Assembly: GCA_019310525.1 (NCBI GenBank)
Contig: JAFDEE010000023.1
Location: 1 to 58,483, forward strand
Reading direction: 5' to 3'
DNA: 58,483 nt
From: Deltaproteobacteria bacterium
Lineage (GTDB): Bacteria; Desulfobacterota; DSM-4660; Desulfatiglandales; HGW-15
A program made the translations under genes and the position numbers. Positions 1,269 through 24,406 of the stretch are shown in pieces (within the stretch, counting starts at the first letter, position 1; the number at the start of each line of letters is the position of its first letter). A model generated the notes under the pieces. That model ran no database searches. It was not told the origin of the DNA and saw nothing but the letters and a program-made list of their open reading frames with translations.

Positions 1269-2192
1269 ATGGGCAGATTGAAAGGAATTCGATTCGGACT
1301 TCTGGCCCTCGTGCTAGCCGTTTTTTCCCTGCCGGCCCTGAGCTCAGCCCAGAATAAGGGACTCCGTTACAGCATAGCGGTGGCCAAGTTTGAAAACCAT
1401 TCCGGCTGGACCGGGCGATGGAATCTAGGGGATGCTTGGTCGGCGGTATTGACGGACAGCCTGAACCGGACGGGAAAATTCATCGTCATCGCTGAGCAGG
1501 ACATGAGGCGGGAGGCAATGGCCGAACAGGATTTCGCAGCGAGCGGCCGTGCGGCCGGAGGGGGAAAAACAGTTGTCACCGGTCAGATGACTCCTGCCCA
1601 GTTGCTGGTAAAAGGGACCATCACCCATTTCCAGGACGGGACGAGTGGCGGGGGCTTCGGCATAGGCATAAAGGGCTTTCGGATCGGTGCTAAGGGCGCA
1701 AAAGCCGAGATCAATGTGCTGGTCTACATCATCGATTCCTCCACAGGCCAGGTGGTGGCCTCTAAAAAGGTTTACGGCTCCATGCAGAAGACCGGCCTTT
1801 CCCTGGGATTGACGAGCGGGGATTTCACCGGCGATGTGGGCGGCTTTAAAAAAACGAACGCCGGCAAGGCCATGGAAAAAGCCGTGGATCAGGCGGTTTC
1901 CTTCCTTGTGGCCCAACTGGAAAAGGTTCCCTGGACCGGGAAGGTAATCTTGGCCAAGCGGGGAAAGATATATATAAATCGAGGCAGCAGAGAGGGTGTC
2001 GCCGTGGGCCAGACCTTTGACGTGGGAAAAGCGGATATTTTGAGGGATCCGGATACGGGTGAGGTCCTGGATTACAGCCTGAACCGGATCGGGACCATCC
2101 AGGCCGTGAGAGTGAAAGAGAAGGTGTCCATCTGCAAGGCGGTCAGGGGCTCTGGTTTCAAGAAGGGGATGATGGTCATGCTGCCCGAGTAA
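1269..2192 (+). CDS. CsgG-family exported protein
   Basis: A 307-residue exported protein. A hydrophobic signal peptide (about residues 3-27, ending SALSSAQ-like) is followed by a CsgG-type domain: YSIAVAKFENHSG, then LTDSLNRTGKFIVIAEQD, then LLVKGTITHFQ and a beta-rich segment ending in VVASKKVYGS. The last 80 residues (GKIYINRGSREGVAVGQTFDV) resemble the C-terminal domain seen in FlgT and related periplasmic proteins. CsgG itself is the outer-membrane curli secretion pore; the flagellar FlgO/FlgT proteins share the fold. No lipobox cysteine is visible, so it is probably periplasmic. The ATG at 1269 is preferred over a GTG at 1254 because AAGGAGGAAGAG directly precedes it. First gene of a four-gene operon. 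Confidence 0.8.
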   Translation: MGRLKGIRFGLLALVLAVFSLPALSSAQNKGLRYSIAVAKFENHSGWTGRWNLGDAWSAVLTDSLNRTGKFIVIAEQDMRREAMAEQDFAASGRAAGGGKTVVTGQMTPAQLLVKGTITHFQDGTSGGGFGIGIKGFRIGAKGAKAEINVLVYIIDSSTGQVVASKKVYGSMQKTGLSLGLTSGDFTGDVGGFKKTNAGKAMEKAVDQAVSFLVAQLEKVPWTGKVILAKRGKIYINRGSREGVAVGQTFDVGKADILRDPDTGEVLDYSLNRIGTIQAVRVKEKVSICKAVRGSGFKKGMMVMLPE

Positions 2193-2245
2193 GATTCCGA
2201 TCGTTTCCCCTTGTGAACGGGGAGGCGATACAAGGAGAAAAAAAG

Positions 2246-3382
2246 GTGATAGCTGGAAAAATAATCCGTTTGCTCCTCTTCATTCTTTTTATCGGGCTGG
2301 CGCTTTCTACAGGGGTTTCGGCGCAGGAGACCCGCCGGGTGAGGGCCGTCGGGGTGGCTGACGGTTCCTCCTCTTCCGCCCGGGATGAGGCCCTGAACGA
2401 CGCCCTTCGAAAGGCAGTGGAACAGGGTGTGGGAACCTTTGTGACCAGCGAGATGACCGTTGAACAGCAAAAACTCGTGGAAGAACGCATCTATACCGAG
2501 AGCCTGGGTTATATCCAGAGTTACGATATCGTCCGGGAAGGTTCGTCAGACGGCCTTTACGAAGTGGAGATCTCTGCTTTGGTCAAGATGGGAAAATTGG
2601 CGGGCGATCTCGAGTCCATCGGCCTCCTGATCCGGAAAAAGCACTATCCCCGCGTCATGGTGGTGATCTACAGCCGGGAAGTGGATAGTTCCATATTCGG
2701 AAAGAACATGGAAGGCAACCGCCAAGTGGAAAACCAAGTGGAGGGGAGCCTGCTCGAAAAGGGTTTCAGAGTGGTGGACGCCTATCAGCTCGGACGTAAA
2801 AAAGAGGCTGAGAGGTTGCTTATCCAGGGTAACACCTCCAAGGCGGCCCAAATAGCCAAAGATCAGGGCGCGGAGATTCTGGTGGTGGGAGAAGTTCGCA
2901 GGTCCTTTGTGGAGGTCCGCAAGGTCATGGGCACTCCGACGCGATTCCTTTCCAACGAGATTCGGCTGAAGGCCCTGGAAACGGATACGGCAAAGGTGCT
3001 CTTCTCCGGTTACAGGACCCGTCCCCCTTCGGGAGCGGGGTCCTTTGTCCCCTTGGAGGACGCTGCTTCCGAGTTGATTGATGAGATGGTCCAGGGGATA
3101 CTGAATCAATGGAGGAAGGACGTCTATCAGGCGGGGGCATACCAGCTCGAAGTTTCGAATGCGTCCTTCAATGAACTCACGCGCTTAAAGCAGGGACTGA
3201 AGGCCATCAGGGGAGTGGCCGGTGTCCAGGTGAGAAATTTCCGATCCGGGCGGGCCCTGTTGGAGGTAAGATACAGGGGGCCCTTGGAAGCTCTGGCGGA
3301 GAAGATTGGATCCATGAAGGGGGTGCGTGTGGAAATTATGGCCCTTCAGGCCAATACCCTCGAAATTGTCATCAAAAAATAA
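2246..3382 (+). CDS. FlgT-like exported flagellar assembly protein
   Basis: A 378-residue exported protein. The N-terminal signal peptide (IIRLLLFILFIGLALSTGVSA) is followed by a domain resembling the FlgT N-terminal domain: AVGVADGSSSSARDEALNDAL and a region rich in short helices and strands, with IQSYDIVRE further on. The middle (about 120-260) has a TolB/FlgT-like alpha/beta pattern, and the last 80 residues (FNELTRLKQGLKAIRGVAGV onward) look like a small ferredoxin-like domain. In Vibrio, FlgT forms the H-ring around the flagellar motor; here the role is inferred. The GTG at 2246 is chosen because AAGGAG lies 9 nt upstream and it begins the signal peptide directly. It follows the CsgG-like gene by 53 bp. 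Confidence 0.72.
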   Translation: MIAGKIIRLLLFILFIGLALSTGVSAQETRRVRAVGVADGSSSSARDEALNDALRKAVEQGVGTFVTSEMTVEQQKLVEERIYTESLGYIQSYDIVREGSSDGLYEVEISALVKMGKLAGDLESIGLLIRKKHYPRVMVVIYSREVDSSIFGKNMEGNRQVENQVEGSLLEKGFRVVDAYQLGRKKEAERLLIQGNTSKAAQIAKDQGAEILVVGEVRRSFVEVRKVMGTPTRFLSNEIRLKALETDTAKVLFSGYRTRPPSGAGSFVPLEDAASELIDEMVQGILNQWRKDVYQAGAYQLEVSNASFNELTRLKQGLKAIRGVAGVQVRNFRSGRALLEVRYRGPLEALAEKIGSMKGVRVEIMALQANTLEIVIKK

Positions 3383-3494
3383 TTCACAGGAGAACCTGAT
3401 CCCAGATCGAGCCTGGCGCTTCGCGGGACAAAGGCCGGGTCCCCCGTACCGGCCCCCGGGATTTGAAGGCGCGGCCAACCGAAGTGAGAAGCAA

Positions 3495-4547
3495 GTGAGC
3501 CCACTGAAAAGAATCCTTGGTATCGCTGTTTTCTTTTTTCTTCTTTCCCCATCTATTTTCCTTAATTCGCCTTCCTGGGCCCGGACCCTTAAGACCAGGC
3601 CTTTCATCGAGGCGTTTCCCAACGGAAAAACGGACTGGGATGCCGGGTACTTTTACGGCACGGGGAAGGGTTACCTCAAACCAAACGGGGATTCAAAGGC
3701 GCGGGCCATTAAGGCCGCAGAGGCAGGGGCCCTTGGGGCCATCCTGCAGGTCGCTGCAAGGATCAGGGTGGATGATCACAGGACCCTTGAAAGACTCCAA
3801 AAGGAGGGCGTGATCCTTCAGATCAGAGGGTTGATTCATTACGAACCTGTCGAGCGCACCTTCATCAGGAAAGAAAACCCTTATTATCAGGTCACCTATC
3901 GGGCTCCCCTTCGGGGGGTTGAGGGACTTGCGACGAAACTGCTTCCCCGTTTGAGGTCCGGCTTTGCTCCCCCGCGTCCCGGCCAGGGGCCCTTCATGGA
4001 GGATTTAAAAGAAGACGGACCCTGGTTGGTCCTGGATGCCCGGGGGCTGCCGAGGGAAGCCGGAATCCAGCCCGCTCTTTTCCCAAGGATTCTCACGGAG
4101 GAAGGGGAAACGGTTTCAGATATGGAGACCGTCGATCAGGAGGCCTTGACCCGCCGGGGAATGGCCAGGTACGTGGTATCGGAGGAGCCACTTCGTGATT
4201 CCCGTGGCTCTATCGGAGGGGCGCTTTTTTCCCTTTTGCAGCATATCCTGGGGCCGGATCCCGCCTTTGCCCAAGGGACCCACAAGCGGAAAAAAAGGGG
4301 ACGATACATCATCAAGCGGGTCAAGGGGGCTGAAGGTCTCCTGCGGACCAACCTGGTCATCAGCGAGAGGGACGCCAAGGACCTCAGGGCCGAGGATGCA
4401 GCGAGCGGGATCCTCAAACAATGCCGTGTGATCGTCGTGGTGTCCGGTTCCATCGGTGGAATCGAGGGGGGACACCAGGGATTCTTAGCCTTCTCCACCG
4501 TACCCTCTTCGAACCGATTCCCAGTGACGGTGAGAGGTGTTCCTTAA
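3495..4547 (+). CDS. Exported protein, LPP20-like N-terminal region
   Basis: A 350-residue exported protein not confidently recognised as a named family. A GTG at 3495 begins a clear signal peptide (RILGIAVFFFLLSPSIFL, cleavage near SWA); longer in-frame starts would bury it. The segment after it (GYFYGTGKGYL, then an Ala-rich helix AIKAAEAGALGAILQVAARI) resembles LPP20/FlgP-like proteins, whose members build the outer-membrane flagellar disk. The C-terminal part (ISERDAKDLRAEDAASGILK, then a VIVVVSGSIGG strand-turn) is unassigned. It ends 6 bp before the cyclase gene and so is translationally close to it. The operon context supports an envelope complex role, but that is inference. Confidence 0.6.
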   Translation: MSPLKRILGIAVFFFLLSPSIFLNSPSWARTLKTRPFIEAFPNGKTDWDAGYFYGTGKGYLKPNGDSKARAIKAAEAGALGAILQVAARIRVDDHRTLERLQKEGVILQIRGLIHYEPVERTFIRKENPYYQVTYRAPLRGVEGLATKLLPRLRSGFAPPRPGQGPFMEDLKEDGPWLVLDARGLPREAGIQPALFPRILTEEGETVSDMETVDQEALTRRGMARYVVSEEPLRDSRGSIGGALFSLLQHILGPDPAFAQGTHKRKKRGRYIIKRVKGAEGLLRTNLVISERDAKDLRAEDAASGILKQCRVIVVVSGSIGGIEGGHQGFLAFSTVPSSNRFPVTVRGVP

Positions 4548-4553
4548 GAGGCG

Positions 4554-6668
4554 ATGGATCCCCAACGGAAACTGGCCCGAAGCCACAGGATCTTTTCCTT
4601 CCTGCTTGCCCTCATCCTTATCCTGCTACTATCCTCTCTTTACTTGGCCGGATTTTTCCGGAGAGCAGACCTCTTCCTATACGATCTTCATTTCAAGTGG
4701 CGGGGGATCAGGTATCCTTCCGGAAAGGTGGTCCTGGTCCTGATGGACCAGAGAAGCGCCGATTCTCTTGGCAGGAAAAAGGGCTCCTGGTCCCGGCGCG
4801 ACATGGCAAGGGCCGTCCAAAACCTGGATCGGGCCGGGGCTGGGATCATCGGACTGGACATGGTACTCTTCGCCCCGGGCAGCGATCCGGAGGCGGACAG
4901 GGAACTGGCCCAGGCCATTGAGCGGTCGGGGAAGGTGGTCCTTGCTAAATTCATCCCTGTAAATGAAAAAGAAGAGGTGAATCCCCTTCCCCTGTTTCAG
5001 GAGGGAATGATCGGCGATGGATTCGCAAACCTGTTTCCCGATCAGGACGGAGTCCTGAGAAAAATTCCCTTCTTGAGCGTCAGGCCCCTCCGGGAAGGGC
5101 TGGAGATCACTCCGAGCTTTTCTCTTGAGGTTGCAAGGGCATATCTCGACCTTGACTTTCTGCTGGATTTCTCCGGGAAGGACCGGTTTCGGTTGGGAGC
5201 AGAGGGGCCTGATCAACTTCTTCTTCCCTATCCTGACCTCAGAATTAACTTCCATGGTAACGAGGAGGTTTTCCCACGGTTATCTTACGTCGACGTAGTA
5301 ACAGGGCGGTTCAACTCTGTCGCCATTAAGGGGAAGATAGTTCTTGTCGGGAGTAGTCTCCCAACGGACAAGGACTTCTTTCCGACTCCCTTCAGCAGGT
5401 ACCGGTTCGGAAAGGAAGTCTTCAGGGACAAGTTCGGGAAGATTCTGGAGGAGGGCGTTGGGAAGAGAAGTCCGGGAGTGGCCTGCCATGCCGAGGCCGT
5501 TGAGACCATCCTGAGCGGACGGTTCATAGAAAGGGCGAGCGAAGTCTGGATCTTTCTTTCGGTGATCGCCTTCGGCATAGTTGGATTGGTTTTTTACTCC
5601 TACGGCCGCCCCGGCGCCCTTTGGGGATTGGTTATCCTGCTCGGTTGCTGGGGGCTGATCCTCCTATCCGCTCACCTGCTTTTTGTGAGGTCCCTTACAT
5701 GGGTGGAGGTCTTCCCGGCCCTGGGAATCCTCGGAGCCCAGTACGTGGGAGGTATTGCGGTTCAGAAGGTCTATGCAAGGAAGAAAATGCGGCTGGTAAG
5801 CTCCCTGTTCGGCAAATACGTGTCCCGGGGGGTGGTGGATGGGATCCTCAAGGGGGAGATCCAGGTCGACCTCGAGGGCCGGGCAAGAGAAATCACAGTG
5901 TTTTTCAGTGACCTGCGGGACTTTACCAGGATCGCGGAAACCCTGTCTCCCCTTGAAACGGTAAGGCTGCTCAACGCTTATTTCGATGCAATGCTGCCCA
6001 TCATTTTCGAACATGAAGGCACCCTTGATAAGCTCATGGGAGACGCCATCATGGCCTTTTTCGGCGCACCCAACGTATTGGTTGATCATGCCTCCATGGC
6101 CGCCGAAACGGCCCTGGAAATGGTGGACCGTCTCGAGGCCTTGAAGAGGGAGACGACCCTTAAGGGTATTGAAAGGCTCCGGGTGGGAATCGGACTGAAT
6201 TCAGGTCTGGCCACCGTGGGAAATCTGGGGAGTCGTCATTTCATGGATTACACGGTCATAGGGGATGCGGTCAACCTGGGTTCAAGACTTGAGGGTCTGA
6301 ACAAGGTCTACGGTACCTCCATCATCCTGAGTGAGAACACGGCCGCAGGTCTGGACAACCGGTTCGTTTTGCGTGAACTGGACCAGGTAAGGGTCAAGGG
6401 AAAAGAGGAGGCCGTGGCCATTCATGAACTCGTCGGCCTCTCCGACCGGGTCAAAGGGGAGACCCTGGAAATGATCGACTTTTTTAGCGAGGGACTTCGA
6501 AATTTCCGAGAAAGGAGATGGAAGGAGGCCGAAGAGGTGTTTTCCGGGATCCTGACCCGCTTCTCGAAGGACGGCCCCACCCGCCTCTATCTTGAAAGGA
6601 CCAGAAAACTGCTTGCTGATCCCCCTTCCGGCGAATGGTCCCCGGTGACGATATTCACCACAAAGTGA
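4554..6668 (+). CDS. CHASE2-domain class III adenylate cyclase
   Basis: A 704-residue membrane enzyme expected to make cAMP from ATP in response to an extracytoplasmic signal. Order: one N-terminal transmembrane helix (about 13-35), an extracellular CHASE2 sensor (about 40-330), three closely spaced transmembrane helices (about 335-410), then a cyclase catalytic domain (about 445-620) and a C-terminal helical tail. Metal-binding aspartates are visible at D453 (VFFSDLRDF) and D497 (LMGDAIMAFFG); the base-selecting lysine before LMGD and the DYTVIGDAVN motif favour ATP over GTP. It is the last gene of the operon with the CsgG/FlgT/LPP20-like proteins, which suggests envelope status is coupled to cyclic-nucleotide signalling. 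Confidence 0.9.
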   Translation: MDPQRKLARSHRIFSFLLALILILLLSSLYLAGFFRRADLFLYDLHFKWRGIRYPSGKVVLVLMDQRSADSLGRKKGSWSRRDMARAVQNLDRAGAGIIGLDMVLFAPGSDPEADRELAQAIERSGKVVLAKFIPVNEKEEVNPLPLFQEGMIGDGFANLFPDQDGVLRKIPFLSVRPLREGLEITPSFSLEVARAYLDLDFLLDFSGKDRFRLGAEGPDQLLLPYPDLRINFHGNEEVFPRLSYVDVVTGRFNSVAIKGKIVLVGSSLPTDKDFFPTPFSRYRFGKEVFRDKFGKILEEGVGKRSPGVACHAEAVETILSGRFIERASEVWIFLSVIAFGIVGLVFYSYGRPGALWGLVILLGCWGLILLSAHLLFVRSLTWVEVFPALGILGAQYVGGIAVQKVYARKKMRLVSSLFGKYVSRGVVDGILKGEIQVDLEGRAREITVFFSDLRDFTRIAETLSPLETVRLLNAYFDAMLPIIFEHEGTLDKLMGDAIMAFFGAPNVLVDHASMAAETALEMVDRLEALKRETTLKGIERLRVGIGLNSGLATVGNLGSRHFMDYTVIGDAVNLGSRLEGLNKVYGTSIILSENTAAGLDNRFVLRELDQVRVKGKEEAVAIHELVGLSDRVKGETLEMIDFFSEGLRNFRERRWKEAEEVFSGILTRFSKDGPTRLYLERTRKLLADPPSGEWSPVTIFTTK

Positions 6669-10265: not shown

Positions 10266-10778
10266 ATGACGAGGAAGTCGGAAATATTGGCTTCTGCCAA
10301 CTATTTCTTGAAACCGGGATACATCCTTGTCGCCAACCAGCCGACCGTCATATCCACGGTCCTCGGCTCCTGCGTGGCGGTTTGTCTATACGACAGGAAA
10401 CGAAAGGTTGGTGGGATGAACCATTTCCAGCTTCCATCCATATCACGTTCCGAAGGGGCGACGGCCCGATACGGTAATGTAGCCACTCTGGCCCTCATCG
10501 GAATGATGATCGAGGATGGGTCCAAGGTCAAGAACCTGGAAGCCCAGATTTTCGGAGGGGCTTTTAACCGGGAGGTATCCGATAAGGACGTTGGAAGAGA
10601 AAATATTCGGGTTGCGCGGAGGATCCTGGCCCGGAAAGGCATCAGGCTTGTCTCAGAGGACGTGGGCGGTGAGAAAGGGAGGAAGATCGTCTACGATACG
10701 AGTACGAACGAAGTCGCCGTGATGAGGGTCGACAAGCTTCGCCGGGGAGATTGGCATCCTTACAAGGATGATCGCTAG
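10266..10778 (+). CDS. cheD: Chemoreceptor glutamine deamidase CheD (first copy)
   Basis: A 170-residue CheD, which converts receptor glutamines to glutamates and so tunes chemoreceptor activity. The catalytic cysteine C36 (LGSCVAV) and histidine H53 (GGMNHFQLP) are 17 residues apart, as in characterised CheD. The third active-site position, a threonine six residues before the cysteine in the canonical TLGLGSC pattern, is serine 30 here (STVLGSC). The C-terminal region includes the DVGGEKGRKI segment typical of the family. An AAGGAAG lies upstream of the ATG. It is separated from the main che cluster and follows a hybrid kinase, so it may serve different receptors from the second CheD at 17.3 kb. 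Confidence 0.93.
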   Translation: MTRKSEILASANYFLKPGYILVANQPTVISTVLGSCVAVCLYDRKRKVGGMNHFQLPSISRSEGATARYGNVATLALIGMMIEDGSKVKNLEAQIFGGAFNREVSDKDVGRENIRVARRILARKGIRLVSEDVGGEKGRKIVYDTSTNEVAVMRVDKLRRGDWHPYKDDR

Positions 10779-10986
10779 GTCTCCTCTCTTTCCAAGTATC
10801 GAGGACCGGAAAGGCCTGAAACCTTACCAAGTTCAAACCCGTCGGTTCAGGATCCCTTAAGATCAGCCAGGGATCCTTCATGCCGGGACCCCATCCTATC
10901 TCGAACTTCTTACCGCCCCAAAAAGTTTGGATCATCGTTGGATCATTTCCGTTTCAATGTCCATTCCGGTTCGGAATGCCTTAAGG

Positions 10987-11060
10987 GATCATGGGTTCAA
11001 CGGTTCAAGCGGCGAAATATTTCAAAGGTCTCATTTCAATGTTTAACCCGGATTATGCAA
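10987..11060 (+). repeat. Degenerate copy of the hemB-ahbD inverted-repeat arm
   Basis: GGGTTCAACGGTTCAAG, then TTTCAAAGGTCTCA and TTTAACCCGGATTATGC occur in the same order as GGGTTCAAGGGTTCGAG and TTAACCTAAATTATGC in the arm at 35.97-36.02 kb. The similarity is patchy, so homology is likely but not certain. The TTTCAAAGGTCTCA piece is also found in the right terminus of the 37.6-kb repeat. Confidence 0.4.
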
Positions 11061-11216
11061 TCGGCAAATTTGCCGGATCTGCAGCGTTGTAAGACGCTTG
11101 AAGTACTAAAAGTACGTCATCTTGGTTTAAATCCTGAACCCTTTTGGAAAAACTCAGACGGAATTTTCGCTACAAGGCGGGGATTTCTCTGCCCATTACC
11201 AGAGAGTGACAATAAA

Positions 11217-11233
11217 AAGGCATGGAATTTGCT
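11217..11233 (+). promoter_or_regulatory. Candidate sigma-54 promoter for the M23 peptidase gene
   Basis: AAGGCATG-GAAT-TTGCT keeps both the -24 GG (11219-11220) and the -12 GC (11231-11232) with exactly 10 nt between them. It is 82 nt upstream of the peptidase start. Confidence 0.5.
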
Positions 11234-11314
11234 TTTCACTAAGACAAGAAGGGTGAAATTGGGAAAACCCCTGTCATTTCACCGACAGGAATAAAGACAC
11301 AAGCGGGGTGATCC

Positions 11315-12241
11315 ATGAAACGGGCACAAATGATTCTTGTTTCCAACAACGGGCTCGGAAAGGTCGTTTCCTTTTGTGTGAATCCCTGGCTGGTGGGGTG
11401 CCTGGTCTTTTTGATCGGGATTTGTATCTGTTCGGTTCCCCTCCTTGAAAAGAAGGTCATCAACCTTGTTGAAAGACTGCAGGTCATGGAGAAGAAAAAG
11501 AGGGCACTTGAGTCGGATATTTACCGCTTGGAATATGTCAAGAGATCCCTGGCACGCTTCGAAGAAAAAGAGAAGTTCCTGCGGGACTACTTCGGGATGG
11601 AAGGTTTCGGTTTTCTTGAAAAGGCCATCGGTGTAGGAGGGGATTACAGCCTCGCGGGGCCGAGTGATAGAGAGGCGGAAACGAATGAAGCCAAGGCGGT
11701 AAAGATGAAAACGGATCACTCTGGAGCCCTGCATTCGATCCCGGAGGATTTCAAGGAGAAAATCGAGACACTCATCGGTAACCTTGAGGTGATGAACCGT
11801 TTGGCGGTCAAACAGGTCAAGATCTGGGACAGGACCCCCAGCATCTTTCCCGTTGACCTGGCGCGTCCAAAGATTTCATCGGGATTTGGATGGAGGACGA
11901 ATCCCTTTACTGAACGCAAAGAATTTCATGCAGGAATCGATATCATCGGACCGAAAGGGACGAAGATCATCGCACCTGCCTCCGGGGTGGTGGTGGCGAG
12001 AGGTTACGACCGATGGTTGGGCAATTTCCTTGTCCTTTCTCACGGAAATGGGCTGAAAACCATTTACGGTCACATGGAAAAGATCCAGGTCCAGAAAGGT
12101 ATGGAGGTCAAACGGGGAGATTGCCTCGGGCTCATGGGGAACACAGGCCTCTCCACCAGCCGCCATCTTCATTACGGGGTGATCGCAGGTGAAAGGGTAG
12201 TGGATCCCATGCAGTTTATCCTGGAAAGAGGCGTGTCGTGA
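11315..12241 (+). CDS. M23-family (LytM-type) zinc metallopeptidase, membrane anchored
   Basis: A 308-residue predicted cell-wall peptidase. Order: short cytoplasmic stretch, one transmembrane helix (about 26-46), a charged coiled-coil region (about 48-90), a linker, then an M23 domain (about 185-300). Zinc ligands and catalytic residues are visible: H205 and D209 (HAGID) and the HLH pair H284/H286. The coiled coil plus LytM layout is shared with EnvC/NlpD activators and with MepM-type endopeptidases; because the metal ligands are intact, it is probably an active hydrolase of peptide cross-links. It is followed by a 4-bp-overlapping gene. A sigma-54 type site upstream suggests co-regulation with chemotaxis or flagellar genes. 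Confidence 0.88.
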   Translation: MKRAQMILVSNNGLGKVVSFCVNPWLVGCLVFLIGICICSVPLLEKKVINLVERLQVMEKKKRALESDIYRLEYVKRSLARFEEKEKFLRDYFGMEGFGFLEKAIGVGGDYSLAGPSDREAETNEAKAVKMKTDHSGALHSIPEDFKEKIETLIGNLEVMNRLAVKQVKIWDRTPSIFPVDLARPKISSGFGWRTNPFTERKEFHAGIDIIGPKGTKIIAPASGVVVARGYDRWLGNFLVLSHGNGLKTIYGHMEKIQVQKGMEVKRGDCLGLMGNTGLSTSRHLHYGVIAGERVVDPMQFILERGVS

Positions 12242-12945
12242 ATTTCCTGAATCTCAACCGCTTTTTTCTTCTCCTGCCCTTGACCATGCTGTTTTTGTTC
12301 CTGGCACAGGGTTACGCCCCTTGCAAAACCGTTGTTCCCCTTGAGAGGGAGTCCCTGTTTTGTCTTTATCACAAGATGAGTGGCGAGGTGATAAAGGATC
12401 AAGATATCGAAGACCTCTCGGCCGAGGAGGGAAGACCCTTTTACTCGGCATACAAGCCATCGGAATTGTTTACGAAAAAAAGCCTCAAGGCTGCAAGGAA
12501 ACGGCTGGAAAGGTTGATGCACGATTTGAACGGGGAGACCCTCTTCATGTGGCTGATCGAGTGCCGGGCGGTTTCCTCCAGGAGGGGTTCCCGTGGCCTG
12601 TATCTCAAGCCGTCTGTAACCGGACTTCCGGAATCCACCCCCTTTATTCGGGCCAAGTGGCAAAGGAACGGGAGACGCAGGTTGCTGAAGATTGTGAATA
12701 GTCTGCTTCCCAAGGTCCCTGACCTTTGGGAGGGAAAGACCCTCAGAGTTAAGATCCACTTGAAGGCTGTGAAGACTGTAGAGGCCTTGGAGGTCAGGAA
12801 TATCGCAAGGCAGAAGGTGAGAGTTCCGATCCGCTACGTACTTTTTGAACCGCTTCAGGCGGAATTAGCTGCCGAGCCAAGCGTCCATCCCAACAACCTT
12901 CCGCCCTCCTTTTCTCGTAATCTCCTCTCTTCAAGAAGACAATGA
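12238..12945 (+). CDS. Hypothetical exported protein, translationally coupled to M23 peptidase
   Basis: A 235-residue protein not recognised as a known family. It begins with a clear signal peptide (FFLLLPLTMLFLFLAQGYA). The mature part is basic with several Arg/Lys-rich helices (KSLKAARKRLERLMHDLNGE) and a beta-rich middle (TLRVKIHLKAVKTVEALEV). The GTG start overlaps the stop of the M23 gene by 4 bp (GTGA), so the two are translated together and may act together, for example as a hydrolase and its periplasmic partner. That pairing is inferred from arrangement only. Confidence 0.72.
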   Translation: MNFLNLNRFFLLLPLTMLFLFLAQGYAPCKTVVPLERESLFCLYHKMSGEVIKDQDIEDLSAEEGRPFYSAYKPSELFTKKSLKAARKRLERLMHDLNGETLFMWLIECRAVSSRRGSRGLYLKPSVTGLPESTPFIRAKWQRNGRRRLLKIVNSLLPKVPDLWEGKTLRVKIHLKAVKTVEALEVRNIARQKVRVPIRYVLFEPLQAELAAEPSVHPNNLPPSFSRNLLSSRRQ

Positions 12946-13372
12946 AATGCTCATTGCTGGATGAAAGGGTTCCCACATTGAAGCCGTTTTTGGCAGGATG
13001 TCAAATGAATGACGTATTCCTCTCCCTGATTTTTTCGTTTTCGATTAAAGACCCAGTGCAATTCGGCCGACTTTCATCCATGGAAAACCGGGATTCATTC
13101 AGCGGGACTCGCCTTCTTTCTTATCACTCCGATAGGACTGGAGAAAAATCCGTTGTAACCTGTCCCACAGTTTTTGGAAAAAGGCTCTACACTTATTATT
13201 GGGGGCGGGAAAAATCGAATCCTTTGGCATAACTTTTGCTGATTGATATTATTCAAGTACAAGGTCTCCTGATAAATTCTGAGAGACCTTTGGGGCTCAG
13301 CCCTTTCAAGAGACTTCTCGCTTGAGCAGGTTTAATTTTCGCCATGGAACTTCATGTAAGGAGTAAGGGGTT
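12946..13372. other. Intergenic leader of the chemotaxis operon
   Basis: No confident gene. The region is relatively A+T rich and holds the sigma-54 type site at 13224-13240; the 130 nt between that site and the cheZ-like start would be a long untranslated leader. Confidence 0.5.
13224..13240 (+). promoter_or_regulatory. Candidate sigma-54 promoter of the che cluster
   Basis: TTGGCATA-ACTT-TTGCT matches TTGGCACG-N4-TTGCW closely, with GG (13226-13227) and GC (13238-13239) 10 nt apart. It precedes the cheZ-to-cheB gene run, with predicted transcription start near 13251. Confidence 0.6.
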
Positions 13373-14461
13373 ATGGGTACGATCTTGATGGGTAATATTG
13401 GGGAGAATCAAAAGGGCATAGCTTTCCAGGCGCAAGATATCGTCCGTATCATCCGGAGCGGGGACATCCAGATGGTTTCTTCCAATGAGGAGCCCGGGGT
13501 GTTTCTAGATATAGGGGGACAAATGTATCCGGTCAGGGAAAAGATGGATAAGGAAAATTTAAAGCCCTATTTTATCCTCCACAAGTCCGGGGATATACTT
13601 AATGTGGAGGATTACCGGCTTCTTTTCAACGCCAGGGACCTTGACGGAGGCGATGTCGAAGGTGTGGATGTGGATGGTAAGGCGTATCGTTGTATGTGGT
13701 ATGACGGCGGGCCGGATCCTAAAAATTCGATTTCAGGGCTTACACTGAACCAGATCGAGGAGAAACTCAGGCAGGTTGAAGATCCCCTTTGTGAATTGAA
13801 AGATCTAAAAGACATGGTGTTGAAACTGAAGCAGGGGGAATTCTATGAGGCTTTAACCATGGAGTTCTCCGGTAAAATAAAGGAAATCGCTCAGGAGCTG
13901 ATCGAATTCAGGAAGGATATCCAGAGCAGGATCGAGCCTGGCATCGTCGAAATAGCCGCCAGAGACATCCCGGAGGCCAGTTATCAACTCGAGGGGATCA
14001 ATCAGACCCTTGAGTCCAGCACCATGAAGATCATGGATATCAATGAGGAACAACTGGAGATAGCGAACAAGCGGCTGGAGCGCCTTACTTCACTGTTTTC
14101 CGGGAATGGTGGACCACCCGAAGCGGCTGAGGAAGCCCTGGAGATCCTAAAGGAAGATATAGAAATCCTTAAAAGGATCGGAAACCTGTCCATGAGCATG
14201 ATGGAACCTCTAAGCTTCCAGGATCTGGTGGGACAGCGGATTCAGCGTATCATCAAACTGGTCAAGTCCATGGAGGCGCGGATCAGTGACCTGGTTATCT
14301 CCTTTGGAATAAAAATTCAAAAGCACCGTGAAAATCCGGAAAAGAGTTACGAAGATCTAAAAAAGGACGTTGAAGTTTATAAGTCTGAATTGAAGGGCCC
14401 CCAACTTGAGGGGGAGGGTCTCAAGCAGGAAGATATCGACGAATTGCTTGCCACCCTGTAA
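13373..14461 (+). CDS. cheZ: CheZ-like CheY-P phosphatase with extra N-terminal domain
   Basis: A 362-residue protein whose C-terminal half matches CheZ. The signature FQDLVGQRIQR holds the two catalytic residues, D284 and Q288, equivalent to D143 and Q147 of the enteric enzyme, on a long helix preceded by the pairing region IPEASYQLEGINQTLES. The last residues (QEDIDELLATL) resemble the amphipathic CheY-binding tail of CheZ. Residues 1 to about 130 are an additional domain absent from the 214-residue enteric protein (FLDIGGQMYPVREKM, then YFILHKSGDILNVEDYR), of unknown fold and possibly regulatory. An AAGGAG stands upstream of the ATG. First gene of the chemotaxis cluster. Confidence 0.82.
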   Translation: MGTILMGNIGENQKGIAFQAQDIVRIIRSGDIQMVSSNEEPGVFLDIGGQMYPVREKMDKENLKPYFILHKSGDILNVEDYRLLFNARDLDGGDVEGVDVDGKAYRCMWYDGGPDPKNSISGLTLNQIEEKLRQVEDPLCELKDLKDMVLKLKQGEFYEALTMEFSGKIKEIAQELIEFRKDIQSRIEPGIVEIAARDIPEASYQLEGINQTLESSTMKIMDINEEQLEIANKRLERLTSLFSGNGGPPEAAEEALEILKEDIEILKRIGNLSMSMMEPLSFQDLVGQRIQRIIKLVKSMEARISDLVISFGIKIQKHRENPEKSYEDLKKDVEVYKSELKGPQLEGEGLKQEDIDELLATL

Positions 14462-14543
14462 TAGGATGTCATCTCCGATGGAGGTGCGCGGTACAGGAAT
14501 GCAGGTAACAATAAAAATTTGAAATAAGCCAGGGAGGGTCAAA

Positions 14544-14927
14544 ATGTCTTTTGACACATCAATGAAGGTTTTGGTCGTGGATGATTTTGCGACCATGAGG
14601 CGCATCGTTAAAGGGGTTCTCAAGCAGCTCGGCTTCAGTGATATAGTAGAAGCCGAGGACGGCAACATCGCCCTTGAGGAACTGAAGAAGGAAAAGTTCG
14701 GATTGATTGTCTCTGACTGGAATATGCCCAACATGACCGGACTGGACCTCCTGAAGGCCGTCAGGGGGGACGCCAACTTGAAAGACATACCCTTCATCAT
14801 GGTTACAGCGGAAGGACAAAAGGAAAACGTGGTTGAGGCCGTAAAGTCGGGGGTCAGCAATTACATTGTAAAACCCTTCACCCCCGAGACTTTCAGCGAA
14901 AAGCTCCAGAAGGTCTTCGGAGGGTAA
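14544..14927 (+). CDS. cheY: Chemotaxis response regulator CheY
   Basis: A 127-residue single-domain receiver with every hallmark of CheY: acidic pair D13/D14 (VVDDFATMRR), phospho-acceptor D58 (VSDWNMPNMTG), switch threonine T88 (MVTAEG) and the conserved lysine K110 (YIVKPFTPE). CheY-P binds the flagellar switch protein FliM to alter rotation. Start at 14544 with GGGAGGG upstream. It lies between the cheZ-like phosphatase gene and cheA, which is the natural cognate set. The CheY fold length is complete, with no output domain. Confidence 0.96.
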   Translation: MSFDTSMKVLVVDDFATMRRIVKGVLKQLGFSDIVEAEDGNIALEELKKEKFGLIVSDWNMPNMTGLDLLKAVRGDANLKDIPFIMVTAEGQKENVVEAVKSGVSNYIVKPFTPETFSEKLQKVFGG

Positions 14928-14990
14928 CGAAAGCCGTCTTTTCCTTCACATTGGCCTTCGGCATGATCTCATCAGGGAGAACATAATTCA

Positions 14991-17240
14991 ATGTCTGAAT
15001 TGATCGGAAAAATAGGCAGCGAAATAGAGAAGATCGCCCTTGAGGTGGTCACCCTGGAAAATGGAGACATCCCGGCCATGGGAGACGTCATGAACCGGCT
15101 CTGCTTCCTGGAGGAAAAGGCCGGGGAGATCAAGGAAGGCGCTTTCAATAACCTGGTTTCCGCCCTCAAGGGTTATCTTGAGAAGTTGATCCTTTCGGAA
15201 CTCGATGACATGGGGCCGTTTGAAGAGGGGATCGAAAAGCTTCAATCCATTCATCGGGCCATGGTCAACGAGGAACCCTTCAGGGGAGATATTCATCCTT
15301 TACTGAAAAAGTTGGGTTTCAATTCGAAACCGAACGATAAGGGAGAAGAGGTGCAAGAGGAAGCGACACCGGAAATCGCCGAAGGAGAGGAAAAGGAGCC
15401 GCAGACGGAATCTACAGATGCAAAAGAAGAATCGGCGGCGGAATCCTTCGAGGAATCTTCCCAGGAGACCCAGGAACTGAGCGAAGAGGACCGGCAGATC
15501 CTCCAGGATTTTGTCGTTGAATCCCTTGAAAACCTTGGGACGATCGAGGTGAGCCTCATTGACCTTGAGCAGGATCCCACGGATGCGGAGACCATCAACG
15601 CCATATTCAGGCCCTTTCATACCATTAAAGGTGTTTCAGGCTTTCTGAACCTGGACAAGATCAACAAGCTCGCCCATAGTGCGGAGAATCTCCTGGACAA
15701 GGCCAGGAACGGAGAAATCCGGGTGGAAGGCATGGTTATCGACCTGATCCTGGAATCCGTGGACATGCTGAAAAAGATGATCGAAGGAGTCCAGGATGCC
15801 CTGGAGACCGGCGGCCCACTGGATGCCGGTATCGACATCGGACCCCTTGTAAAACGCATCAACGATGCTCACTCAGGTGAGGGGGACAAGCCCCTGGGTG
15901 AGATCCTCGTAAACAAGGGGGCCGTTGCAAAGGAAGATGTCGAAGAAGGCCTGTCAAAGCAAAAAGAGGAACCCGACAAGAAGATCGGTGGAATCCTCGT
16001 AGAAGAGAAAAAGACGGGTTCAAAAGAAGTCATATCCGCCCTGCGGGAGCAGAAAAGATATAATCGCCGCCACATAGATCTCCAGGTAAAGGTCGATACC
16101 AAGAAGCTGGACAACCTCGTGGACCTGACCGGAGAACTGGTCATCAGCCAGGCCATGCTCAGGCAGAACGAATGGGTCCGGAATGCCAACGATCAAAAAC
16201 TTTTTCATACCCTGAACCAGTTGAACCAGATTACATCGAGCCTCCAGAGGACGGCCATGTCCCTCCGGATGATTCCTATTAAAAGCACTTTTCAAAAAAT
16301 GGTGCGTCTGGTCAGGGATCTTGCCAAGAACTCAGGAAAAGAAGTAGGCCTGGAGATGTCCGGTGAGGAAACCGAGATCGATCGGAACGTGGTGGATGAG
16401 TTGTACGAACCCATGGTCCACATGATCCGCAATGCCGTGGACCACGGGATTGAAATGCCGGATGAGAGGGAAAAGGCCGGAAAGGATCGAAAGGGGACTA
16501 TTTTCCTCAAGGCCTATCACAGGGGAGGAAATATCATCATCGAAATCAAGGACAACGGCCGCGGACTTGACAAAGCCCGGATCCTTGAAAAAGCCAGATC
16601 CAGCAACCTGATAACCGATGAGGACCAGCTCACGGAATCGGAAATCTATAATCTTATTTTTCGACCCGGATTTTCAACGGCCCAGAAGGTGACTGATATA
16701 TCCGGGAGAGGCGTTGGTATGGATGTGGTCAAGCGGGCCATCGAAAAACTCCGGGGCCGGGTGGAAATCAATTCCATCCCCGGCGAGGGATCCACCTTCG
16801 TGATCAGCCTTCCCTTGACCCTGGCAATTATTGAAGGGATGGTGGTGAGGGTCGGAAAGGAGCGTTACATCATCCCGGCGCTCGCCATCCTGGAATCCTT
16901 CCGGCCTCAAAAAGATCAGTACTCGACCGTGGAAGGAAAGGGTGAGCTTATCCTTTCCAGGGGAAGACTCATCCCGTTGATCAGGCTGGATCGGGTTTTC
17001 GGGGTACAGGGAGATTCCGTCCATCCGTGGGACGGGCTGGTTGTCGCTGTGGAAAGCGATGGAGAGCAGAGATGTCTCCTCCTTGACGAATTGCTTGGAA
17101 AGGAAGAGGTCGTCATTAAGAGCCTTGGCGAAAGCCTTAAGCATACCAAGGGAATCGCCGGGGGAGCCATCATGGGTGATGGCAGGGTCGGCCTCATCTT
17201 GGACATTTCAGGTCTTTTCGAGATTGCCCAAATGAACTGA
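14991..17240 (+). CDS. cheA: Chemotaxis histidine kinase CheA
   Basis: A 749-residue CheA. Order: a helical N-terminal extension (1-110), an acidic Glu-rich linker (115-165), the Hpt domain with phospho-accepting H210 (RPFHTIKG), a segment resembling MshEN half-repeats (about 299-355: PLGEILVNKGAVAKEDV, then KIGGILVEEK), dimerisation helices (about 360-440), the HATPase domain (N-box HMIRNAVDHG at 477-486, NGRGLD and GRGVGMDVV boxes) and the CheW-like P5 domain (about 605-749). CheA phosphorylates CheY and CheB when receptors are unliganded. No separate cheW occurs in this window. It follows cheY by 63 bp and precedes cheD by 32 bp. Confidence 0.95.
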   Translation: MSELIGKIGSEIEKIALEVVTLENGDIPAMGDVMNRLCFLEEKAGEIKEGAFNNLVSALKGYLEKLILSELDDMGPFEEGIEKLQSIHRAMVNEEPFRGDIHPLLKKLGFNSKPNDKGEEVQEEATPEIAEGEEKEPQTESTDAKEESAAESFEESSQETQELSEEDRQILQDFVVESLENLGTIEVSLIDLEQDPTDAETINAIFRPFHTIKGVSGFLNLDKINKLAHSAENLLDKARNGEIRVEGMVIDLILESVDMLKKMIEGVQDALETGGPLDAGIDIGPLVKRINDAHSGEGDKPLGEILVNKGAVAKEDVEEGLSKQKEEPDKKIGGILVEEKKTGSKEVISALREQKRYNRRHIDLQVKVDTKKLDNLVDLTGELVISQAMLRQNEWVRNANDQKLFHTLNQLNQITSSLQRTAMSLRMIPIKSTFQKMVRLVRDLAKNSGKEVGLEMSGEETEIDRNVVDELYEPMVHMIRNAVDHGIEMPDEREKAGKDRKGTIFLKAYHRGGNIIIEIKDNGRGLDKARILEKARSSNLITDEDQLTESEIYNLIFRPGFSTAQKVTDISGRGVGMDVVKRAIEKLRGRVEINSIPGEGSTFVISLPLTLAIIEGMVVRVGKERYIIPALAILESFRPQKDQYSTVEGKGELILSRGRLIPLIRLDRVFGVQGDSVHPWDGLVVAVESDGEQRCLLLDELLGKEEVVIKSLGESLKHTKGIAGGAIMGDGRVGLILDISGLFEIAQMN

Positions 17241-17272
17241 ACTTCAACCCCGAGAAGGAAAGGGATATTCTG

Positions 17273-17752
17273 GTGAACTTAGTCGTCGGCGTTTCTGACA
17301 TGAAGGTGAGCAGTGATCTCGATTCCATCCTGGTCACTTACTCACTTGGTTCCTGTATCGGGATTTCCATTTACGACCCCGTAGCACGGGTAGGGGGGTT
17401 ACTTCACTTTATGCTCCCGGATTCGAAATTGGATCCCGAAAAGGCGCGCAAGAATCCTAACATGTTTGCGGATACGGGCATCCCCAATCTGTTCAAGTCC
17501 GCTTATAAACTGGGGGCGGCCAAGCAGAGGATGAAAGTCATCGTGGTCGGCGGCGCCCAGGTTCTTGACCAGAAGGGCTTTTTCAATATCGGAAAGAGAA
17601 ATTATATGGCCGTTCGGAAGATGTTCTGGAAGAACAACGTGATGATCGACTATGAGAATGTGGGCGGAAACGTGAACCGGACCCTCAAATTGGCGGTCAA
17701 AGACGGGAAGGCCTGGCTGAAAGTATCGGGCGAGGGGGTTTTTGAGATATGA
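17273..17752 (+). CDS. cheD: Chemoreceptor glutamine deamidase CheD (second copy)
   Basis: A 159-residue CheD with the full catalytic set T22, C28 (YSLGSCIGISIYD) and H45 (LLHFMLPD), spaced exactly as in characterised CheD, unlike the first copy, where the threonine position is serine. The NVGGNVNRTL segment near the C-terminus matches the family. The GTG start follows AAGGAAAGGG. Its stop overlaps the start of the HDOD gene (ATGA), so the two are translationally coupled. CheD also binds CheC/CheX-type phosphatases in some species, and a CheX-like gene lies 1.3 kb downstream. No CheC is visible. Confidence 0.93.
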   Translation: MNLVVGVSDMKVSSDLDSILVTYSLGSCIGISIYDPVARVGGLLHFMLPDSKLDPEKARKNPNMFADTGIPNLFKSAYKLGAAKQRMKVIVVGGAQVLDQKGFFNIGKRNYMAVRKMFWKNNVMIDYENVGGNVNRTLKLAVKDGKAWLKVSGEGVFEI

Positions 17753-18597
17753 AGGATATCAGAGAAATCATTAAAAAGATTGACGCGCTGAAGCCCATGC
17801 CGCAGGTCGCCCAGAAAGTCATGGCTATCGCAAAAGATCCTCAGAGTTCCATGGCGGACCTTTCCGAGATCATCATATACGACCAGGCCCTGACCGCAAA
17901 TGTGCTGAAGCTTTGCAACTCGGCCCTTTTCGGCCTGCCGAACAAGGTGGAATCCGTTCAGCAGGCAATCGTTTATCTTGGAATGGACCAGATCGTGGAT
18001 CTTGTTCTCATAAGCGGAGGAGCTTCAAACCTGAAGGGAAAACACGAAGGATATGACCTGGAGGAGGGGGAACTCTGGCGGTATTCCGTGGCTTCTTCTT
18101 TGATAGCGAGAGATCTTGCTGAAATCAAAAAGGCCGAGAATGTCCACTTGATATTCACCTCTGCCCTTGTAAAGGATATCGGAAAGGTCATTTTGAATCA
18201 GTACGTGGCGGATTCTTACGAAAAGATCAAGTTTCTTGTTTCCAAACACGGCTTCAGTTTCAAGGAAGCGGAGAAGGCCGTTATCGGCATTGATCATGCC
18301 GAGCTTGGGGGACTGGTCGCGGAAAAATGGAACTTCTCCTCCAAGATGATTGAAATCATCAGGTATCATCATTCCCCTTCAGAAGCAAAGGAATCTTCTT
18401 TCGAGACTTGCCTTGTTCATCTGGCTGATTCCCTTTGCATGATGATGGGAATCGGAGTGGGGTCCGACGGCCTGTCTTACCGTTTCGACCGCGATGCGGC
18501 CGAACAACTGGGCTTCTCCGAAAGAGATTTTCAGGAGATCATCGCCGGGTTCGGCGAAAAGATCCAGAAGGTGGAGGAACTCATCAATGCGGTGTAG
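17749..18597 (+). CDS. HDOD domain signalling protein
   Basis: A 282-residue HDOD protein, a catalytically degenerate relative of HD phosphohydrolases common in signalling operons of Deltaproteobacteria. The domain is visible from LKPMPQVAQKVMAIAKD through DQALTANVLKLCNSALFGLP and VQQAIVYLGMDQIVDLVLI, with a later KDIGKVILNQ segment and IEIIRYHHSP. The usual HD metal residues are not arranged as in an active phosphodiesterase. The start overlaps the stop of cheD by 4 bp. Within a chemotaxis operon, HDOD proteins are thought to act as scaffolds that modify signalling or c-di-GMP output; its exact role here is unknown. Confidence 0.9.
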   Translation: MKDIREIIKKIDALKPMPQVAQKVMAIAKDPQSSMADLSEIIIYDQALTANVLKLCNSALFGLPNKVESVQQAIVYLGMDQIVDLVLISGGASNLKGKHEGYDLEEGELWRYSVASSLIARDLAEIKKAENVHLIFTSALVKDIGKVILNQYVADSYEKIKFLVSKHGFSFKEAEKAVIGIDHAELGGLVAEKWNFSSKMIEIIRYHHSPSEAKESSFETCLVHLADSLCMMMGIGVGSDGLSYRFDRDAAEQLGFSERDFQEIIAGFGEKIQKVEELINAV

Positions 18598-19050
18598 GGT
18601 TTCAAGCGGCCCCTTGAACAGTATGGCCCGCGGTGGAGTACACCGGAGAAGCATACGAGAGGATGATTATGGCGTATAATGTCCTGGTAGTAGACGATTC
18701 TCTTCCCATGAGATCCGTCATCAAGAAGACGATCAAGGTTTCCGGGTTCAACGTCGGGCAACTCTTCGATGCCTCGAACGGAAAAGAGGCGTTGGAGATT
18801 CTCCGGAAGGAATGGCTCGATCTCGTCCTGACCGATTACAACATGCCGGATATGAACGGCCTTGAACTCATACGGGAGATGAAAAAAGACGATGCCCTTG
18901 AGGGAATACCGGTCGTAATGGTTACAACGGAAGGGAGCGAGCAAAGGGTCAAGGAATTCCTCGAAAGCGGGGCGGCGGATTATATCAAGAAGCCCTTCAC
19001 CCCTGAGGAGATCAGGGAAAAACTAAACCGTATCATGGGAGAAAAAGACG

Positions 19051-20581
<1,531 letters not shown>

Positions 20582-23171: not shown

Positions 23172-23251
23172 GAGGGAGATGGGATGACTCTTGATAAGGA
23201 TCGCCTCAGGTGTATCAAAAAAGGACCGGACGGAAGAATCGGGGGATGGAT

Positions 23252-24406
23252 ATGACAGAAAGACCGGCCTTTGCCGGTGATATAGGTTTTATCACCCTCG
23301 CCGATATCTTCCAGATCCTGGGAGGTAACAACAGCACGGGGGTATTGTACCTGAAGAGTCCCCATACAGAGGGACCGGGTGTGATCTATTTTTCCGAAGG
23401 CAAACCCATCAATGCCGCGGTCGGGTCCCTTTACGGCAAGGAGGCCATCTATGCCCTTTTCGGTTGGAGGGAAGGCAGCTTCGAGTTCCGCCTTGAACCG
23501 GTTCATGCCGGCAGGGTGGTGGAAGAAAGCTCCATGCAGATAATACTGGATGCCTTGAGAATGTTGGACGACGGTCAAATCCCCCGGGTCGGCGGTGGCG
23601 AGGGAAGGCCGGCGGGAGGAGGGTCGCCGATCCTGAAAGGCCGAGTTGTAGATTACATGTATGTGATCGACGAAGAGGTCATCCCGGATGGAGAAACCGT
23701 GGTCAGGGAGGGAGCACACGGGAAGTGGATCTGGGTGATCCTGGAGGGTTCTGTTAAAGTGAGCAGGGAGACGGGCCTGGGAACCTTGACTGTTGCAAGG
23801 CTCGGTCAGGGAAGTTTTATCGGCACCATCGGCTCTTTCCTTTTCAGTGACATACCCCGAAGTGCCACTGTCATTGCCCAGGGAGATGTGCGCCTCGGAC
23901 TCCTGGACAGTCAGCGGCTTCACGAGGAGTATTCGAGGCTATCCCCGGATCTCCGGACCCTCCTGATCAGTGCGGCGCGACGCCTTCAGAGGATCACAGA
24001 CCGTGCGGTGGCGCTTCATTCGAAGAGGGGGAAGGATGAAACGCTGCCACAGGCCCGAATGGTCGTCCAAAAAGGGACCCGGCTGGAGGAGGCCTTTTTC
24101 ATTTCGAGGGGAAAGGCCCTGCTCCTGGGGGAAGGTCCGGGAGGGGCCGTTCCCCTTCTCACCCTGGATCGAGATGATGTTTTCGGGTTCCTGCCCTTCC
24201 TTGACCTCGGCCATGAACCCCTGTATGCATCAGTGCTTGGGTCCGGGGATCTGGAGACCAGGCAGGTGGATATCTTTTCCCTGAAGAGGGAATACGACGA
24301 TATTCCCGGGACCCTTAAACATCTCATCGAACAATCCTGCCATTCAGTGGCCATGACCACGCGGCTGGTGTATCAACTGATGGAGGGAAAAGAAATACAG
24401 GAATAG
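23252..24406 (+). CDS. PATAN (DUF4388) and cyclic-nucleotide-binding domain protein
   Basis: A 384-residue soluble protein. The N-terminal part (about 1-115) has a PATAN/DUF4388 pattern: FAGDIGFITLADIFQILGG, GVLYLKS, VIYFSEGKPINA and a WREGSFEF closing segment. This is followed by a cyclic-nucleotide-binding-like domain (about 130-250: PDGETVVREGAHGKWIWVI, then LGQGSFIGTIGSFL) and a second, more divergent copy (about 260-384: VVQKGTRLEEAFFISRGKA). The canonical phosphate-binding RxA is not clearly kept, so nucleotide binding is uncertain. PATAN domains occur in response regulators that control motility. ATG 23252 has GGGGG about 7 nt upstream; 23246 is also possible. Confidence 0.78.
   Translation: MTERPAFAGDIGFITLADIFQILGGNNSTGVLYLKSPHTEGPGVIYFSEGKPINAAVGSLYGKEAIYALFGWREGSFEFRLEPVHAGRVVEESSMQIILDALRMLDDGQIPRVGGGEGRPAGGGSPILKGRVVDYMYVIDEEVIPDGETVVREGAHGKWIWVILEGSVKVSRETGLGTLTVARLGQGSFIGTIGSFLFSDIPRSATVIAQGDVRLGLLDSQRLHEEYSRLSPDLRTLLISAARRLQRITDRAVALHSKRGKDETLPQARMVVQKGTRLEEAFFISRGKALLLGEGPGGAVPLLTLDRDDVFGFLPFLDLGHEPLYASVLGSGDLETRQVDIFSLKREYDDIPGTLKHLIEQSCHSVAMTTRLVYQLMEGKEIQE

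Follow-up and report, generated by a model that had tools for sequence, protein, structure and literature searches.

The window analyzed here is a stretch of 58,483 nucleotides from a Deltaproteobacteria bacterium (Desulfobacterota; DSM-4660; Desulfatiglandales; HGW-15), covering positions 1 to 58,483 of the forward strand of contig JAFDEE010000023.1 in assembly GCA_019310525.1. It contains an operon of 4 genes on the plus strand, at positions 1269–6668, separated by gaps of 53, 112, and 6 bp, exactly as an earlier sequence-only reading of this DNA had laid them out:

1269..2192, plus strand: g1, exported CsgG-like protein of 307 aa with a C-terminal FlgT_C/TsaP-type domain
2246..3382, plus strand: g2, exported FlgT-like protein of 378 aa, GTG start
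3495..4547, plus strand: g3, exported LPP20/FlgP-like protein of 350 aa, GTG start
4554..6668, plus strand: g4, CHASE2 class III adenylate cyclase of 704 aa
4548..4553, plus strand: the g3-g4 junction, 6 bp in the window, with overlapping genes in several relatives

The overlap between g3 and g4 in these relatives suggests that their translation is coupled. No internal promoter rose above the shuffled-sequence background. A hydrophobic, signal-like segment is found at the start of each of g1, g2, and g3.

The protein encoded by g4 contains a CHASE2 domain at residues 22–345 (7.1e-48, 163.8 bits against a curated cut-off of 26.3) and a C-terminal cyclase domain (Guanylate_cyc, 6.1e-24, above cut-off). 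Its catalytic set is complete, comprising the metal-binding aspartate pair D453 and D497, the adenine lysine K493, N574, and R578, and its K-GD and T-VN-R motifs are kept in relatives. Together with matches to solved adenylate cyclases of up to 9.7e-33, these conserved residues make it likely, as judged from sequence, that g4 is an active adenylate cyclase. Hydropathy places one transmembrane segment on the N-terminal side of the CHASE2 domain and two or three on its C-terminal side, for a predicted topology with CHASE2 in the periplasm and the cyclase in the cytoplasm. The same genome holds 17 matches to cNMP-binding domains, and the window itself encodes a protein with a DUF4388 and a cNMP-binding domain (23210–24406), a possible cAMP effector.

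The Pfam CsgG domain covers residues 30–224 of g1 (3.7e-29, 102 bits, passing the curated cut-off of 20.8), and FlgT_C matches weakly (0.026) at the same C-terminal place as TsaP. When a g1 profile was compared to solved structures, CsgG was matched over most of the length of g1 (4.5e-10) and TsaP in its C-terminal part (1e-7). The alignment to CsgG, whose pore is formed by two transmembrane hairpins, stopped at CsgG residue 190. The signal region of g1 contains no lipobox cysteine. In its domains, g1 resembles both CsgG, the curli pore, and TsaP, the type IV pilus secretin partner, but differs from them in joining both domains in one chain, in lacking a lipobox, and in its presence in an operon without curli genes. 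Across six Desulfobacterota loci, g1 is 61–66% identical; at L009, an in-frame stop codon near 313–360 breaks the g1 homolog.

For g2, the Pfam match to FlgT_N (1.4e-5, 26.0 bits) falls under the curated cut-off of 28.8, while homologs at two other loci (L030 and L091) lie above it. A g2 profile matched FlgP at 3e-6; ubiquitin and B-Raf rows in the same profile search were rejected as repeat or chance matches. An AlphaFold2 model, built from 24 aligned sequences (pLDDT 75), predicts an SHS2 domain, followed by a TolB_N/CsgG-like domain and a ferredoxin-like C-terminal domain. The first of these is laid out as a strand, a helix, a two-strand insert, and two further strands, with the insert predicted as a hairpin at 65–85 at low pLDDT. 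The top fold matches of the model in Foldseek were the LPHT-ring chain 8z5n (4.3e-11) and FlgT 3w1e (3.5e-10), and VIA-align placed residues 30–291 on FlgT with a Z of 12.7 and an rmsd of 8.8 over 219 residues. As modeled, g2 has the N+M fold of FlgT, and its middle domain also matches the folds of PelC, GNA1162, and LpoB. The full N-M-C chain of FlgT is not kept, however, as the C-type domain sits on g1 and g2 ends in the ferredoxin-like domain.

The classification of g3 as LPP20/FlgP-like comes from its distant homologs, and not from the g3 clade by itself. Pfam gave no match for g3 alone, LPP20 was not found up to E 1 in seven g3 proteins, and a profile from the g3 clade only recovered neither Pfam LPP20 nor FlgP. 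A profile of g3 with its distant homologs (A2) matched C. jejuni FlgP at 9.7e-13, and hhalign aligned 228 columns of the g3 family with LPP20-like proteins from WOR-3 and Fermentibacterota (probability 99.2, E 2.3e-19). FlgP is known to be SHS2-like, as are Lpp20 and FlgT, and ring formation is tied to an insert after the helix (9hmf, PMC12222027). The structural model of g3 is poor (pLDDT 52) and was used for the first domain only; in it, the region matching the ring-forming beta-hairpin insert is a helix. The sequence-only reading had recognized CsgG-, FlgT-, and LPP20-like proteins beside a CHASE2 cyclase; these identities hold for g1 and g4 and, by its modeled fold, for g2, while that of g3 stands through the distant-homolog profile, its best fold match being Lpp20 (5ok8) at only E 0.07. 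A single cysteine in g3, Cys310, is invariant in the aligned g3 proteins and lies in a conserved C-terminal stretch ending in IGG.

The same four-gene order, which that reading had proposed to look for in related genomes, was found in three other Desulfobacterota genera (L005, L006, and L007) at 47–69% identity. It is a rare arrangement: within the class of the window, 4 of 85 members have it, the window and these three relatives, so that the four-gene operon was rejected as the unit of conservation. A full g3 ortholog was likewise present in 4 of the 85 genomes, and close g4 orthologs (57–58%; next best 41%) were found in the class only in those same four. Sampling across the phylum, beyond the class, gave 22 genomes with g3 in total. 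With g3 alone as the query, adjacency as no criterion, and a profile built from cyclase-paired g3 proteins, 21 of the 22, from several classes of Desulfobacterota, had a g4 ortholog directly downstream of g3 and on its strand. Four of these 21 pairs (L093, L101, L105/L106, and L107) are truncated or interrupted, in most cases at the end of a contig, and the one exception is G597 (L100). Outside the 22, a more distant g3-like gene without a nearby cyclase lies near a contig end in G225 (L090). Within the set, identities range from 28–53% for g3 and from 35–58% for g4. The conserved core is the g3-g4 pair. In about ten of the 22 genomes, it occurs without g1 or g2 in the stretch covered, indicating that a CsgG/FlgT assembly is not needed in cis.

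The cyclases paired with g3 form a lineage of their own. In a tree of 18 g3-paired and 12 other CHASE2 cyclases, a branch with support 100/98 placed all g3-paired cyclases on one side and the 12 others on the opposite side. Among the latter are L075, which belongs to the window's own genome, and the second copies of G094 and G081; the two remaining CHASE2 proteins of the window's genome matched g4 too weakly and were left out of the tree. No genes similar to g1, g2, or g3 were found beside the unpaired cyclases, which mostly adjoin thiamine-like genes and in one case a FecR-like gene, as read from the sequence of the neighbors.

The CsgG- and FlgT-like partners of the pair vary in their arrangement. 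In one genus, divergent genes encoding three CsgG-like domains and a FlgT-like protein lie beside g3-g4 (L094, and similarly L093), and at L104 a FlgT-like gene directly precedes the pair. At L091 (4518–6308), a protein of 596 residues carries g3 in its C-terminal half and is followed by genes for a CHASE2 cyclase and a FlgT-like protein; its N-terminal region faintly resembles g1, a tentative similarity (E 0.005, no Pfam CsgG match). The envelope genes also occur without the cyclase. At L008–L011, g1 and g2 are present without g3-g4; in two of these loci (L008 and L010), they are divergent from genes for a protein with WD40/Sel1 repeats and for an FKBP isomerase. A triad of CsgG/LpoB-like, LPP20-like, and FlgT-like proteins lacking a cyclase was found in WOR-3, Fermentibacterota, and related genomes (L012, L014, L016, L018, L019, L021, L023, L025–L027, and L030). 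In addition, a paralogous g3-like/g2-like pair is part of a mutL-miaA block in the window's own genome and many class members (L063, G000:C84:1-9000, and L064–L074), in many cases alongside genes for a TPR protein and a CDP-alcohol phosphatidyltransferase. These occurrences make the envelope module look older than its link to the cyclase.

The flanking genes gave no clue to function, as they are unlike between the window and its relatives: an NAD synthase and an RNA-methyltransferase-like gene in the window, and in two relatives a response regulator and PAS kinase before the operon, with a short-chain dehydrogenase and aconitase X after it. Downstream of the operon in the window lies a chemotaxis-type cluster (10266–20581) encoding CheD, a CheZ-like protein, CheA, a second CheD, HDOD and receiver proteins, CheX, and CheB. 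It starts 3.6 kb from the operon, in a neighborhood that is not common to the relatives.

The pairing of g3 with g4 probably represents an unrecognized route for reporting the state of the outer envelope. On balance, we lean toward an account in which g3 serves the CHASE2 sensor as a dedicated partner in the periplasm, so that the condition of an outer-membrane ring assembly reaches the cell as cAMP. In such a system, g1 and g2 would probably assemble into an outer-membrane ring or collar, which g3 would bridge to the periplasmic CHASE2 domain of g4. A change in the assembly, whether empty, occupied, or strained, would be passed by g3 to CHASE2 and alter cytoplasmic cAMP, which CRP-type or other cNMP-binding proteins would then read. 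The ring, the direct contact between g3 and CHASE2, the signal, the sign of the regulation, and the effector are parts of this scheme that we infer. Partners in an operon may be co-regulated without touching, which counts against direct contact. The account as a whole is supported by folds that match ring-forming families (FlgT, FlgP, CsgG, and TsaP), by the 17 cNMP-binding matches in the genome, and by the precedent of NsrA, which needs CHASE2 cyclases to signal (PMC7529298). A more specific proposal, which we advance tentatively and with a little less than even confidence, is a trans-envelope sensor of a class not described before: an LPP20/FlgP-like protein, optionally docked on a non-flagellar CsgG/FlgT-like ring, would bind CHASE2 cyclases of a dedicated lineage across Desulfobacterota and gate them, so that cAMP signals the state of the ring.

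Alternatively, the operon could encode a secretion pore of the CsgG/PelC type, in which g1 exports a polymer or protein with g2 and g3 as periplasmic accessories, and g4, without touching the others, uses cAMP to adjust how strongly the exported product is expressed. The homology of g1 to CsgG and the PelC, GNA1162, and LpoB folds matched by the middle domain of g2 would fit such a role. However, none of the curli partners CsgA/B/E/F was seen in the operon, curli subunit and exopolysaccharide genes were recognized neither there nor in the conserved flanks, many g3-g4 loci are without visible CsgG-like genes, and g1 is without the CsgG lipobox, making this explanation unlikely. Slightly less likely still is that g3 and g2 are cell-wall adaptors similar to LpoB and Tp0624, with CHASE2 reading the wall or turgor as a sensor of peptidoglycan or envelope stress. 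Tp0624 of Treponema pallidum (5jir) consists of a helix-on-sheet domain 1, a domain 2, and an OmpA-like third domain (PMC5104382). Similarly, g3 has a helix-on-sheet domain 1 followed by a region that resembles domain 2, and LpoB matches were found in its partner proteins; the resemblance is marginal, however (0.0023, A4 profile), and the OmpA-like third domain is missing from g3.

The sequence-only reading had tied the operon to a flagellar disk and proposed looking for co-occurrence with flagellar genes. This tie did not hold: FliG is present in 11 of the 22 g3 genomes and absent from the other 11, most of which are at least 90% complete, and a genome that is 97% complete and has the full operon (G061) contains neither FliG nor FlgI. 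The WOR-3 and Fermentibacterota triad genomes that were tested likewise yielded no FliG, and no recognized flagellar genes lay beside the operon in the relatives examined. A flagellar role was thus rejected as a general explanation on the distribution of FliG and FlgI. Like FlgT of the H-ring (3w1e, 8z5n) and FlgP of the basal disk (9hmf, PMC12222027), g2 has an SHS2-type domain, and it has the FlgT N+M fold; unlike them, the system here has its FlgT_C-type domain on g1 and a cyclase attached. A flagellar outer-membrane disk or H-ring-like structure made of g1–g3, with the cyclase reporting flagellar assembly or strain, is therefore very improbable, despite these folds, the presence of FliG and FlgI in the window's own genome, and the nearby chemotaxis-type cluster. 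The reporting of envelope state as cAMP, which was part of the same proposal, remains the leading idea on the strength of the phylum-wide link between g3 and CHASE2, detached from the flagellar disk.

The proposed reporting by way of g3 has counterparts among CHASE2 cyclases elsewhere. In Sinorhizobium meliloti, NsrA signals through the CHASE2 cyclases CyaK, CyaD1, and CyaD2, which, like g4, are inner-membrane proteins, and which need an outer-membrane protein to respond (PMC7529298, PMC13001267). The partner there is a beta-barrel receptor, whereas here LPP20/FlgP-, FlgT-, and CsgG-like proteins are encoded in the same operon, and no gene for an NsrA-type beta-barrel was recognized among g1–g3. 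Gene clusters of Campylobacterota, like those described here predicted from genomes only, also keep the genes for an outer-membrane protein and a CHASE2 cyclase together, but they encode FecR, TPR, and phosphodiesterase proteins, none of which is present in the window's operon, in place of g1–g3 (PMC9239204). In magnetotactic bacteria (Magnetospirillum), the exported-protein gene mtxA precedes a CHASE2 cyclase gene in the same way as g3 precedes g4; MtxA, however, combines TPR and Ig-like domains and has no reported homolog, while g3 is LPP20/FlgP-like (PMC4439547). The literature searched contained no report joining CHASE2, CsgG, and adenylate cyclase, nor CHASE2 and LPP20. The earlier statement that no described system links these parts thus holds for the set of LPP20-, FlgT-, and CsgG-like partners, which is not described in the searchable literature, but not for CHASE2 and envelope proteins at large, of which NsrA, the FecR clusters, and MtxA are known pairs.

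Sensing across the envelope by CHASE2 cyclases is poorly understood, and its clear precedent requires an outer-membrane barrel. An LPP20/FlgP-like protein whose gene is almost always paired with that of a cyclase from a lineage of its own offers a small, testable system. More broadly, these findings suggest that sets of LPP20-, FlgT-, and CsgG-like proteins constitute a general envelope module that also occurs without flagella; flagellar disks may be a specialized use of it.
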